A program made the translations under genes and the position numbers. The notes under the pieces are model-generated. The model was not told where the DNA came from. It saw only the letters and a list, made by a program, of their open reading frames with translations, and searched no databases. 64,000 bases of DNA from Pseudomonas serboccidentalis (lineage in GTDB: Bacteria; Pseudomonadota; Gammaproteobacteria; Pseudomonadales; Pseudomonadaceae), in NCBI RefSeq assembly GCF_028830055.1, contig NZ_CP101655.1, forward strand, positions 2,312,051 through 2,376,050, read 5' to 3'. Positions 59,486-63,795 of this stretch are shown here, piece after piece (within the stretch, counting starts at the first letter, position 1; every line of letters starts with the position of its first letter).

Positions 59486-60910
59486 TCAGGCCATCTGCGC
59501 GGCAGCAACGACATCAGCAGGCTGCGAGGCCCGCACGGTGCGCCAGGTGTTGTAAGCCATCAGGAACATGCCGCTGAGGAAGATCGCGCCGCCCACCAGT
59601 CGCACGATGAAGCCTGGGTGGCTGGCCACCAGGGTTTCGACGAAGGAGTAGGTCAGCGTGCCGTCCTCGTTCACTGCGCGCCACATCAGGCCCTGAGCGA
59701 TGCCGTTGACCCACATCGACGCGATGTACAGCACGGTGCCGATGGTCGCGAGCCAGAAGTGCGCGTTGATCAGGCCGATGCTGTGCATCTGCTCTTTGCC
59801 GAAGACTTTCGGGATCATGTGGTACAGCGCGCCGATGGAAATCATCGCCACCCAACCCAGAGCGCCGGCGTGCACGTGGCCGATGGTCCAGTCGGTGTAG
59901 TGGGAGAGGGCGTTGACGGTCTTGATCGCCATCATCGGACCTTCGAAGGTCGACATGCCGTAGAACGCCAGCGACACCACGAGGAAACGCAGGATCGGGT
60001 CGCTGCGCAACTTATGCCAGGCGCCCGAGAGGGTCATCATGCCGTTGATCATGCCGCCCCAGCTCGGTGCCAGCAGAATCAGCGACATCACCATGCCCAG
60101 CGACTGCGCCCAGTCCGGCAGCGCGGTGTAGTGCAAGTGGTGCGGGCCGGCCCAGATGTACAGGGTGATCAAAGCCCAGAAGTGCACGATCGACAGGCGA
60201 TACGAATACACCGGACGTTCGGCCTGCTTCGGCACGAAGTAGTACATCATCCCGAGGAAACCGGCGGTGAGGAAGAAACCCACGGCGTTGTGGCCGTACC
60301 ACCATTGCACCATCGCGTCGGTTGCACCGGCGTACACCGAGTAGGACTTGGTGAAACTCACTGGCAATTCAAGGTTGTTGACGATGTGCAGGATCGCTAC
60401 GGTGATGATGAACGCGCCGAAGAACCAGTTGCCCACATAGATGTGCTTGGTTTTGCGCTGCATGATCGTGCCGAAGAACACGATGGCGTAGGCGACCCAG
60501 ACGATGGTGATCAGGATGTCGATCGGCCATTCCAGCTCGGCGTATTCCTTGGAACTGGTGTAGCCCAGTGGCAGGCTGATCGCCGCCAGGAGGATCACCA
60601 GTTGCCAGCCCCAGAAGCAGAACGCGGCGATTTTTGGCGCGAACAGCTGCGTCTGGCAGGTGCGCTGCACCGAGTAGAACGAACTGGCGAACAGCGCACA
60701 GCCACCGAACGCGAAGATCACCGCGTTGGTGTGCAGCGGGCGCAGACGGCCGAAACTGGTCCATGGCAAATTGAAGTTGAGTTCAGGCCAGACCAATTGG
60801 GCGGCGAGAAAAACCCCGAGCCCCATGCCGACGATGCCCCACACCACCGTCATAATGGCGAATTGGCGGACCACCTTGTAGTTGTAGGCGGTACTGATAG
60901 AAGTGTTCAT
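59486..60910 (-). CDS. ccoN2: cbb3 oxidase catalytic subunit I (operon 2)
   Basis: 474 residues, about 12 helices, same histidine motifs as CcoN1 ([35 protein letters not shown]). By position it is the equivalent of the P. aeruginosa ANR-induced operon, and an ANR box lies 120 bases upstream. It differs from CcoN1 mainly at the N-terminus, the [17 protein letters not shown] region and the C-terminus. Confidence 0.97.
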
Positions 60911-61004
60911 GGTTCCCCATCCACGGTTCAGCCGAAGTGAGCGCGCGCGAGAACGCCGCGAATCCTTCGTCTGGAGTTATAGGCAGACTAAAAGCGAGGC
61001 AAGC

Positions 61005-61682
61005 ATGGACAAACAGCACAAGGCCAGTATTGACGGGGATCAATGGGCGCAGTGTGTGCGTGATCATGGGTGGCTTTGGGATGCCGCGTCGGGCGAGGCT
61101 GCGGCGACGTTGATCCTGGCCCACGGTGCTGGTGCGCCGATGGATAGCGACTGGATGAACGATATGGCTGGGCGCCTTGCCGGGCTTGGTATCAACGTGT
61201 TGCGGTTTGAGTTTCCGTATATGGCGCAGCGGCGGGTGGATGGGGTGAAGCGGCCGCCGAATCCTGCTGGGAAATTGCAAGAATGCTGGCGTGAGGTTTA
61301 TGCCGAGGTGCGGCGTCATGTCACTGGGGTTTTGGCCATTGGCGGCAAGTCGATGGGCGGGCGGATGGCGAGTTTGGTGGCGGATGAGTTGGGTGTTGAT
61401 GCGATGGTGTGTCTGGGGTATCCGTTTTATGCGGTGGGGAAGCCGGAGAGGCCTCGGGTTGAGCATTTGGCGGGTTTGCGGACTCGGGCTTTGATTGTGC
61501 AGGGGGAGCGGGATGCGTTGGGCAATCGCGAGGCTGTCGAGGCTTACACGTTATCGCCTGAGATTGAGGTGTTTTGGTTGGCGGCTGGGGATCATGATTT
61601 GAAGCCTTTGAAGGTTTCGGGGTTTACGCATGAGGAGCATTTGGCCCGTGCGGCTGGGCGTGTGGCTGGGTTTCTTCGGTGA
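61005..61682 (+). CDS. Alpha/beta-hydrolase family protein
   Basis: 225 residues, cytoplasmic. Oxyanion region LILAHGAGAPMDSDWM near 41, nucleophile elbow IGGKSMGGRMAS (G-K-S-M-G, Ser near 115), acid in VQGERDALGN, and histidine in AAGDHDLKP. It resembles the KANL3/Tex30-like small hydrolases (P. aeruginosa has a related gene here). ATG at 61005 has GCGAGG upstream. The first codons overlap the ANR box of divergent ccoN2. The later codons favour G- and T-ending triplets (TTG, GGG, GTT), unlike neighbouring genes. Confidence 0.83.
   Translation: MDKQHKASIDGDQWAQCVRDHGWLWDAASGEAAATLILAHGAGAPMDSDWMNDMAGRLAGLGINVLRFEFPYMAQRRVDGVKRPPNPAGKLQECWREVYAEVRRHVTGVLAIGGKSMGGRMASLVADELGVDAMVCLGYPFYAVGKPERPRVEHLAGLRTRALIVQGERDALGNREAVEAYTLSPEIEVFWLAAGDHDLKPLKVSGFTHEEHLARAAGRVAGFLR
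61030..61043. promoter_or_regulatory. ANR box of ccoN2
   Basis: TTGAC-GGGG-ATCAA, 9 of 10 consensus bases, 120 bases upstream of the ccoN2 ATG and inside the first codons of the hydrolase gene. Confidence 0.75.
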
Positions 61683-62055: not shown

Positions 62056-62380
62056 TGTGGGAGCTGGCCTGCCAGCGATGGCGGCCTACGAGCCGACCAA
62101 TCTCTAACTGACCCCACCCATTCCCACTGTAGGAGTGAGCCTGCTCGCGATGGCGGCCTGCCAGCCGCCCCATTTCTACTGGGTGTACCCAATCCAACTG
62201 TGGGAGCTGGCCTGCCAGCGAAGGCGACCTGCCAGCCGACCAATCTCTGCCGGATGTACCCAATTCAACTGTAGGAGTGAGCCTGCTCGCGATGGCGGCC
62301 TGCCAGCCGCCCCATTTCTACTGGGTGTACCCAATCCAACTGTGGGAGCGAGCTTGCTCGCGAAAGCGGCGGACCAGACA
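62056..62380. repeat. Tandem array of five REP units, 71-nt period
   Basis: Units start at 62056, 62128, 62199, 62270 and 62341. Units alternate between the GTGGGAGCTGGCCTGCCAGC and GTAGGAGTGAGCCTGCTCGC types; unit 2 (62128-62198) and unit 4 (62270-62340) are identical over all 71 bases. All are in the same orientation. Confidence 0.92.
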
Positions 62381-62530
62381 CCATCGAAATTGAGGGCAAT
62401 TCCCGGCACTTCATGCCCTGTTTAAATTACACGAACCGTTACGCCATAAAGGCTACAACGCCTTGCGCCGTTACCTACGCCTACGCCAGAATCCGCCGGC
62501 TTACGCGGCCATGCAGTGGGCGATATCGTT

Positions 62531-62727
62531 TCCCTGTCACTGAAAAACAGTGATCGGGTTTGGTAGCCCGTCTGTAATAGCTGTATGGCGACACCGTATG
62601 CAGTCCCTTTTTGGGGGCTCGGTTTTATGGTGGTCATGCGTGGGGCTCATTCGTGAGCGCCGGGTTCCTATTGCAGCCGGTCTACCAACCCGCGTATGGC
62701 CGCCACCCTCGTTTGGTAGCGAGGGTG
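62531..62727 (+). ncRNA. Highly structured leader upstream of the DUF3077/DUF6124-like gene
   Basis: Successive plus-strand hairpins: TCACTG/CAGTGA (62537-62553); CGGG[TTTGGTAG]CCCG (62555-62570); CTGTATG/TATGCAG (near 62582-62604); GCTCA-TTCG-TGAGC (62645-62658); a GC-rich hairpin whose loop contains CTACCAA (62682-62688); and CACCCTCG[TTTGGTAG]CGAGGGTG (62704-62727). Two loops are identical and the third loop is their complement, so kissing or alternative pairing is possible. It ends 34 bases before the ATG. The function is unknown. Confidence 0.6.
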
Positions 62728-62761
62728 ATGGCTCCTTGAAATCTGCGATAGGAGTTCATCC

Positions 62762-63118
62762 ATGTTCAAAATCACACCCAACCCACCGCACACTGACCCA
62801 ATCCCCCACGACCCAGCGCTTGAGTCTCAGAAGACCAAAGAGGCAACGGATCGCGCCCTCGACTACTACCTCAGACCCGAAGCTCTGGTAGCGCCGCCCA
62901 AGACTCGTCCCATCTACCTTGTCGATCCCACACTGGATGACGAAACCCTGCTCGTCGAAGCCTGTGAATCGCTGTCCTCGGCCAAAGCCATGGCCGGCAA
63001 CATCGCCAACTCCGTGAGCGGCCCGGAGCGTCAACCGCTGCTGGCGCTGCAACAGCTGATCATGCTGAACGAGCTGCTGGTCAATCGACTGCTGGATAAG
63101 CTGCGCGTGCCCCTGTAG
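62762..63118 (+). CDS. Small DUF3077/DUF6124-like protein
   Basis: 118 residues. Opens MFKITPNPPHTDPIPHDPAL and continues EATDRALDYYLRPE, then an acidic helical C-terminal half (TLLVEACESLSSAKAMAGNI, ALQQLIMLNELLVNRLLDKL). This architecture matches a Pseudomonas-restricted family of unknown function often found in several copies. A ribosome site GATAGGAG precedes the ATG. The TAG stop and the last residues (VPL) are encoded where a REP begins. No enzymatic motif. Confidence 0.8.
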   Translation: MFKITPNPPHTDPIPHDPALESQKTKEATDRALDYYLRPEALVAPPKTRPIYLVDPTLDDETLLVEACESLSSAKAMAGNIANSVSGPERQPLLALQQLIMLNELLVNRLLDKLRVPL

Positions 63119-63312: not shown

Positions 63313-63795
63313 TTAGTTGGCTTCAGGCGGTCTCAGCCTCGTCATGGTGAAAATCCCCTTGGGGTTCAGACGATAGCGATGACTTTTGAACACGGCCTCG
63401 AATGATCCCGTAGCAATGTCCGTTTTAGTGTCATATTTGATGCTGAGGGTCGCCGAGTCGGCGGTTACCCTAGCCATTCCGATAAAACCCGGCGGTGCAG
63501 GGATCCAATGGCTATGTCCAAATGTCAGCCCGTGGCTGAGGTTATAGGTGCCTGTGAGTGCCTCATCGGATTGGTAGGGCAGAGTCAGGGAGAAAGCAAA
63601 ATAGCTTTCATCGTCGAAATTTCCCGTTCCACCATCAATGGCCCAATACGGCTCACCCAAAAACTCGCCCTGATAGAAAGATCTGAATTTGGCTGTTTTC
63701 TGTTTACCGCCCAATCTCCATTGAAATGTGTCATCGCGCACTAGCACTAGTGGCTTTTCTTTCGGGAGAAAAATAACTTGAGTGGTCATTGTCAT
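63313..63795 (-). CDS. Hypothetical protein, 160 residues
   Basis: Not recognised. No signal peptide or membrane helix; rich in beta-forming and aromatic residues (WRLGGKQKTAKFRSFYQGEF, YFAFSLTLPYQS, TGTYNLSHGLTFGHSHWIP, SFEAVFKSHRYRLNPKG), suggesting a small beta-barrel or sandwich. Two possible ATGs (63795, 63789) follow GGCAGGT. Lower GC than its neighbours, consistent with an accessory gene. It lies between two look-alike terminators. Confidence 0.7.
   Translation of the reverse strand: MTMTTQVIFLPKEKPLVLVRDDTFQWRLGGKQKTAKFRSFYQGEFLGEPYWAIDGGTGNFDDESYFAFSLTLPYQSDEALTGTYNLSHGLTFGHSHWIPAPPGFIGMARVTADSATLSIKYDTKTDIATGSFEAVFKSHRYRLNPKGIFTMTRLRPPEAN

Follow-up and report, generated by a model that had tools for sequence, protein, structure and literature searches.

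The window analysed here, a 64,000-nucleotide stretch of the genome of Pseudomonas serboccidentalis, contains near its 3' end a compact series of RNA elements followed by a gene for a small DUF6124 family protein. An ORF with an alpha/beta hydrolase domain lies before the series, the genes further upstream are, judging by their translations, what we take to be cbb3 oxidase genes (ccoN, ccoO), and an ORF on the opposite strand follows. Scans of the two neighbouring ORFs, the first with Pfam and the second with Pfam and PHROG profiles, recovered no phage-like features. The individual features are as follows:

60903-61682: neighbouring ORF with an alpha/beta hydrolase domain (by Pfam only)
62501..62529, + strand: promoter-like pair TTACGC - 17 nt - TATCGT, directly 5' of the a1 region (tentative)
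62523..62574, + strand: a1b1 target element (c4-a1b1, RF03163), a stem-loop and the a1 hairpin; 45.4 bits in Rfam, slightly below the gathering threshold of 46.7
62555..62570, + strand: a1 hairpin CGGG-TTTGGTAG-CCCG, with the loop TTTGGTAG at 62559-62566 (loop 1 of the initial annotation)
62572..62580, + strand: b1, CTGTAATAG, complementary to b'
62602..62619, + strand: terminator-like hairpin between b1 and C4
62623..62710, + strand: C4 antisense RNA (Rfam RF01695, 80 bits, E 1.9e-15)
62645..62658, + strand: C4 stem P2, GCTCA-TTCG-TGAGC, with a TTCG loop
62665..62676, + strand: b', the loop of the P3 stem, TTCCTATTGCAG, complementary to b1 and to b2 (Shine-Dalgarno region)
62682..62688, + strand: a', CTACCAA, a single-stranded stretch of the junction with complementarity to a1 and a2
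62704..62727, + strand: a2 hairpin CACCCTCG-TTTGGTAG-CGAGGGTG, with the loop TTTGGTAG at 62712-62719; overlaps the 3' end of C4
62743..62756, + strand: b2, CTGCGATAGGAGTT, containing the Shine-Dalgarno sequence TAGGAG of the downstream gene; forms a 14-nt run with b'
62762..63118, + strand: putatively controlled gene for a DUF6124 family protein of 118 aa (PF19619, 71 bits), ATG at 62762
63313-63795, opposite strand: neighbouring ORF of 160 aa, without a Pfam or PHROG match

Under a permissive rule that asks for a TANNNT box at a distance of 16-18 nt from a -35-like box, all 23 cassettes of the host genome have a promoter-like pair 5' of C4. Since a stricter consensus scan found no promoter at 62501..62529, the pair in the window is regarded as tentative.

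The core of the locus is a C4 antisense RNA, i.e. a member of the known phage-type family represented in phages P1 and P7: the segment at 62623-62710 scores 80 bits with the RF01695 covariance model against a cut-off of 45, and the Rfam C4 and c4-a1b1 matches stand in the correct order. The targets of C4 in P1/P7 are named a1b1 (the subject of RF03163) and a2b2, and both have counterparts here, a1b1 upstream and a2b2 downstream of C4, each complementary to a' and b'. The initial annotation had described the same segment as a structured leader ahead of a small gene, which we find to be the DUF6124 gene. Its directly read motifs, namely the hairpins at 62555 and 62704 with the same loop, CTACCAA at 62682-62688 and the TTCG stem at 62645, are all in place, as is the complementarity of both outer loops to the middle element: loop 1 is the target a1, the middle loop is a', loop 3 is the target a2 and the TTCG hairpin is P2. 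Whereas CTACCAA had been drawn as a hairpin loop, the C4 fold places it in a three-way junction, where it forms the 3' strand and stays unpaired. The statement that no known class is matched was right as far as riboswitches are concerned, but the leader does belong to a known RNA family, and its identity as C4 explains the riboswitch-like look of such leaders.

Several measures support the fold itself. The 230-nt stretch at 62531-62760 folds far better than its dinucleotide shuffles (z -5.9, 0/200), and in an alignment of the 23 RF01695 matches of the host genome 96.9% of the cells over 27 base pairs are paired, against 84.7% in shuffles. Compensatory change is widespread in the P1/P2/P3 fold, with 18 of the 27 pairs altered on both sides; none of 500 shuffles attains any of five measures of covariation, and sliding the structure along the alignment lowers the paired fraction to 32-44%. 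When C4 is folded in isolation, the mean probability of being unpaired is 0.80 for b' and 0.88 for a', compared with 0.30 for the whole C4, and the P1-stem GG at which RNase P would release C4 is present (ATGGTGG).

The complementarity of the 7-nt loops to which the initial annotation drew attention is not remarkable by itself, as a shuffled a' equals it in 698 of 5000 trials upstream and in 318 of 5000 downstream. Chance does not account for the Rfam match, for the match of b' to the Shine-Dalgarno region or for the co-variation of the recognition segments across paralogues and orthologues. The 14-nt run of b' at 62743-62756 covers TAGGAG and is equalled by only one of 5000 shuffles, and the exact CTGCRATAGGAG of b2 occurs once in the genome. 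A search for further genomic targets of the window's C4 yielded 18 sites with at most one mismatch, fewer than the 39 found with the reversed pattern.

The host genome (6.0 Mb, one contig) encodes 23 C4 matches, all above the cut-off, among the 150 of 1725 candidates that were scored. Judged by coordinates, 20 of these are followed on their own strand, at a distance of up to about 510 bases, by a DUF6124 or DUF3077 match, in some cases after a small ORF, and three are not; conversely, 17 of the 20 DUF6124 matches of the host come after a C4. Three further complete genomes yielded 30, 47 and 35 matches (150 candidates scored), two of the 112 being under the cut-off; in 70 of these 112 a DUF6124 match follows on the C4 strand in the next 600 bases, and, among the matches listed, a C4 precedes 70 of 85 DUF6124 matches. 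Across a sample of the genus, 138 of 149 genomes (host included) have a C4, 137 of them with a match over the cut-off, and the top genomes contain at least 27, which is the number of candidates scored per genome. In the order-level sample, scored at 17 candidates per genome, C4 was found in 36 of 244 genomes; the 32 that do not belong to the genus have between 1 and 6 copies, apart from one with 14. In a class-level sample DUF6124 was detected in one of 369 genomes, namely the host. Thus, many Pseudomonas chromosomes have dozens of these cassettes, each, for the most part, with a matching set of recognition loops of its own.

This abundance allowed us to compare complementarity within and between cassettes, scored as the longest complementary run (Watson-Crick pairs 1, G-U pairs 0.5) and expressed as cognate versus non-cognate means. 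Over the 23 cassettes of the host genome the means are 7.07 versus 4.61 for a'-a2, 7.28 versus 4.44 for b'-b1 and 8.67 versus 4.93 for b'-b2, with none of 20,000 permutations reaching the observed value in each case. As a1 is located by its match to a', the a'-a1 pair was assessed over the whole upstream stretch, giving 7.20 versus 5.60 (permutation p <=5e-5). The initial annotation had pointed to similar leaders before DUF6124 and DUF3077 genes and expected them to show natural covariation of the loops; both the family and the covariation are borne out, the a'-a2 and a'-a1 complementarity being higher within than between the 23 paralogues. The window's a class is common to six host cassettes; the 23 b' strings are all different with no 9-mer in common, and the own b2 is strictly the best partner of b' in 19 of 23 cassettes.

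The correspondence is not uniform. Some cassettes pair weakly in the b segments (the minimum cognate score is 3.5 for b1 and for b2), L110 lacks b1 and L116 lacks a2. The segments were extracted at fixed offsets, by which cassettes with long loops are partly mis-cut, and the a1 site of L021 is mislocated (its a' being one base short); the latter was kept in the paralogue count. RNAcofold shows a weak cognate preference for a1b1, the own partner being strongest in 9 of 23 rows, and none for a2b2, where it is strongest in 3 of 23 and the window's own a2b2 scores zero. Since loop-loop contacts are beyond the program, this speaks neither for nor against the pairing. We also looked for avoidance of cross-talk and saw none: the non-cognate b'-b2 mean of 4.93 (1.8% of pairs at 8 or more) is slightly above that of shuffled loops (4.68, 1.0%), so that the difference between loops is no sign of selection against cross-talk.

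The pattern was reproduced in the complete 6.7 Mb genome with 47 C4 matches (G062), in which four close pairs of cassettes lie ~0.85 to 1.08 kb apart. Here, the cognate and non-cognate means are 7.01 and 4.63 for a'-a2, 6.98 and 4.53 for b'-b1, and 8.03 and 5.03 for b'-b2, and a b'-b2 score of 8 or more is attained by 27 of 47 cognate but only 49 of 2162 non-cognate pairs. No two of the 47 b' strings are identical, although five pairs of them have a 9-mer in common. In 24 of the 47 cassettes no sibling's b2 scores as high as the own one, and in 29 the own one is best or tied; thus, about half of the cassettes are tied or beaten by the b2 of a sibling.

A second comparison used the same chromosomal position in related species. 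Starting from the neighbouring hydrolase we collected 30 loci including the host, and searched their 1.5 kb flanks with a model built from the host's 23 C4s; a C4 was found in 12 of the 30 (host included, one cut off). Re-reading four sites with longer flanks gave one C4, a second C4 truncated where the stretch ends, and two sites without C4. With L077 dropped for its cut-off C4, 11 syntenic cassettes were usable. They have nine different b' strings and b1 and b2 mostly follow, the cognate and non-cognate means being 7.45 versus 4.47 for b'-b1 and 10.14 versus 5.65 for b'-b2 (0/20,000 permutations each), with weaker pairings for the b1 of L079 (5.0) and the b2 of L078 (6.0). Over 33 cassettes, eight adjacent b' positions show all four Watson-Crick pairs, in a tally that by construction counts only the paired bases of each cassette's best run and excludes unpaired cells. 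The a loop is nearly constant among the orthologues, and in the sole deviating cassette, L068 (TTTAGTAG), a1, a' and a2 agree with one another.

The window's own a'/b' string recurs in 30 stretches of a genome collection (each up to 8 kb), all titled Pseudomonas, with a DUF6124 match in 29 of them, though not always directly behind C4, and the same hydrolase in eight. In G062 this specificity is found at 3997314, whereas the cassette on the hydrolase side, at 2148492, has other loops. This suggests that cassettes, or their specificities, move or recombine.

These comparisons bear on two rival explanations. One is that the repeated loops are simply part of a coding sequence. Both copies, 153 nt apart, do read Phe-Gly-Ser in one frame, as the initial annotation had pointed out while asking that coding be excluded, and an ORF at 62550-62891 is open through both loops. 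The arrangement is not conserved: 12 of 34 cassettes (with the L021 site set by hand) have both loops in one frame, close to the third that chance alone would give, and in just six of the 34 is that shared frame also open, leaving the coding explanation with next to no probability. The other is that the cassette is a decaying prophage relic. In its favour, C4 is a phage-type RNA, the host genome also has decayed copies at 3824092 (-) and 3350781 (+), where a1b1 matches lack a full C4, and an in-frame TAG interrupts the DUF6124 match (462681) that follows the C4 of L015. Yet b', b1 and b2 have changed in a compensatory way at a single chromosomal site among related species, which, along with the covariation of the fold, points to selection, and C4 is present in 138 of the 149 genus genomes, making loss of function highly improbable as a general account. 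As for the decayed copies, one is followed by an apparent tail of a DUF6124 frame and the other by half a C4.

The cassette is probably a complete chromosomal C4 antisense-RNA unit that silences its own gene, and most likely the C4 switches off the small Pseudomonas gene standing behind it. In P1/P7, a' of C4 gives specificity, b' reaches the ribosome site and the RNA is processed by RNase P (PMC5320573). By analogy, we infer transcription, processing and silencing along the following lines, in which any role of the DUF6124 protein is likewise an extrapolation. A single promoter would give rise to a transcript spanning a1b1, C4, a2b2 and the DUF6124 gene; C4 (62623-62710) would fold as P1/P2/P3 and be released by RNase P; the a' strand would dock on the loop of the a2 hairpin and the b' loop would cover the Shine-Dalgarno sequence within b2, as a consequence of which DUF6124 would stay untranslated. 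Pairing of C4 with a1b1 may act in addition on the start of the transcript. As most b' fit their own b2 best, each locus should for the most part be regulated independently of the others. Before processing, a1b1 could pair in cis with a'b' and hold C4 back, making the precursor a two-state RNA. Consistent with this, the minimum free energy structure has such pairing in 17 of 23 leaders, with an advantage of 2.8 kcal/mol over the C4 fold in the window, and accordingly the probability of being unpaired falls to 0.43 for b' and 0.29 for a' in the full-length leader. The kissing-loop, two-state RNA of the initial annotation thus survives in part: a cis switch is energetically plausible, but the proposal covered the a half alone and missed the b half at the ribosome site.

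The same cis pairing can be read with the opposite sign. Mutants of the two-state IsrK-orf45-anrP RNA of Gifsy-1 in Salmonella demonstrated a silent, cis-paired form and its activation by the short IsrK RNA, which activates rather than represses (PMC4825925), and the leader described here resembles it in that its 5' part has two alternative partners, one local and one further downstream, as in structures A and B of that system. By this scheme the leader would be locked by a1b1-a'b' pairing, and a short promoter-proximal a1b1 RNA would open the mRNA in trans and turn translation on. The cis pairing in 17 of 23 leaders would fit, as would the terminator-like hairpin between b1 and C4, a candidate transcriptional attenuator, which recurs in 14 of 23 paralogues and is matched by at most 2 of 60 shuffles in eight of those 14. 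It is, however, missing in nine paralogues, the window's own copy (62602..62619) is equalled by 9 of 60 shuffles, and six leaders do not show a1b1-C4 pairing. Similarly, the isrK model (RF01394) does hit 62536-62612, but its 33.1 bits fall short of the gathering threshold of 50, so that the RNA is not placed in that family, and the controlled gene is a different one. The conserved anti-Shine-Dalgarno b' loop and the C4 fold, in turn, indicate a released antisense RNA. Activation of this kind therefore appears unlikely; the closeness with which b' follows b2 leads us to favour a released C4 that occludes the ribosome site, though the sign of the control is a proposal from sequence. The main text of PMC4825925 does not contain the terms Citron, phage P1, bacteriophage P1 or C4 RNA.

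C4 is an immunity RNA in P1/P7 (PMC5320573), and it is conceivable that the chromosomal copies mainly silence incoming phages or satellites with the same a/b recognition, DUF6124 being secondary. Viral contigs indeed carry C4 with varied loops (62 of 80 examined loci, out of at least 120 stretches, could be parsed, and 18 misfit the parsing rule), and the host cassette at 3176944 (L022/L101) has the same a loops and near-identical b', b1 and b2 as a record named 'Pseudomonas phage vB_Pae_U10', from which cross-silencing is predicted. This likeness is also explicable by shared descent, and the window's own a'/b' string was encountered, within the genome collection, in the 30 Pseudomonas stretches described above, 29 of them with a DUF6124 match, giving an immunity function a slim chance as the primary one. 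The U10 record encodes an integrase and a primase and is satellite-like by our reading; there is no DUF6124 or DUF3077 match behind the C4 at 3176944.

A broader and decidedly unlikely version would combine the two roles. The repertoire of up to almost 50 C4 cassettes in Pseudomonas might constitute a set of RNA barcodes, each silencing itself and incoming elements with the same loops, and allowing its DUF6124 or DUF3077 protein to be made once the cognate C4 is absent or titrated away. If true, this would amount to a scattered RNA-based self/non-self or addiction system evolving by coordinated change of b', b1 and b2.

The gene behind C4 varies in type. Among 67 cassettes (23 from the host, the 30 best genus matches and 14 others; six without an ORF after C4), it is of the DUF6124 or DUF3077 type, or encodes a short protein of ~52 aa, a BRO-N antirepressor resembling phage Ant, or a third, unnamed type of protein, with profiles run on one example each of the BRO-N, short, third and DUF3077 types. 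This variety suggests that the downstream gene is modular. For the window's DUF6124 protein, a predicted model has helices at 18-37, 60-84 and 90-115 (mean pLDDT 75.8). A fold search with this protein, a helical hairpin, gave best E-values of 0.57 in the PDB and 0.24 among viral models, a profile search of PDB sequences gave one match at E 0.76, and a comparison with the PADLOC anti-phage defence profiles returned no family up to E 1. One host protein, at 2584492 (-), matches both the DUF6124 and DUF3077 Pfam families; a common ancestry of DUF6124, DUF3077 and the third family received no support from hhalign with the shallow profiles at hand. In L049, the example on which the BRO-N profile was run, C4 lies 5' of the antirepressor-like gene in the classical phage arrangement but within a Pseudomonas genome, and L052, L053, L056, L059 and L047 are assigned to this arrangement by their resemblance to it. 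Another cassette with DUF6124, L095 (EU982300), is found close to prtR, at one margin of the Pseudomonas phage DVM-2008 record.

In type I toxin-antitoxin systems an antisense RNA blocks the translation of a small protein of the same locus. The present cassettes likewise combine an antisense RNA and a small protein at one locus, but C4 is on the same strand as the mRNA. With the C4 of P1/P7 (RF01695, RF03163) they have in common the fold, the assignment of specificity to a' and of the ribosome site to b', and two targets flanking C4. They differ in that DUF6124 rather than icd or ant stands behind C4, in the non-phage-like character of the scanned neighbouring ORFs, and in their number, with 23, 30, 47 and 35 matches in four genomes and mostly different b loops in the 23 and 47 cassettes read. 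The window is thus not an immI locus of the P1/P7 kind, with icd and ant in a phage genome (PMC8198154).

Among earlier accounts, the nearest found are a 2010 survey and a study of Acinetobacter sRNAs. The survey lists C4, including c4-a1b1, for Proteobacteria and phages (PMC2864571), with Pseudomonadales among the orders, as quoted in PMC5320573. The latter describes the 21 Group 1 sRNAs of Acinetobacter baumannii, a large C4-like family in one genome that is expressed and apparently processed; its targets are left open and variability is described for a' alone. Here, by comparison, variation extends to a and b alike, and each cassette has its targets within itself, in its leader and at its ribosome site. 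C4 has been best known from phages P1/P7 and from this sRNA family with open targets. The family is thus a known one, and its combination with DUF6124 and the co-evolving b loops were not found in print in a search, mostly of non-subscription papers and under current gene names, that returned no paper with the word DUF6124, hence none linking it with C4, and DUF3077 only in a resequencing report. Having the targets inside the cassette makes a natural library of antisense RNAs and targets readable, with 23 members in one genome and 47 in another, and offers a direct test of how antisense pairs diverge yet stay matched, while the orphan family DUF6124 would be linked to a mechanism.

Some further sequence elements accompany the cassettes. 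In the window, CTGTAGGAGTGAGCCTG occurs three times, at 62127, 62269 and 63113, flanking the cassette, with the stop codon of the DUF6124 gene inside the third copy. Two conserved stretches are found 5' of the promoter-like pair, AGAATCCGCCGGCTT in 8 of 23 cassettes (at 62486-62507 in the window) and GGTTGYCCGTCGGA in 5 of 23; these may possibly represent operators.
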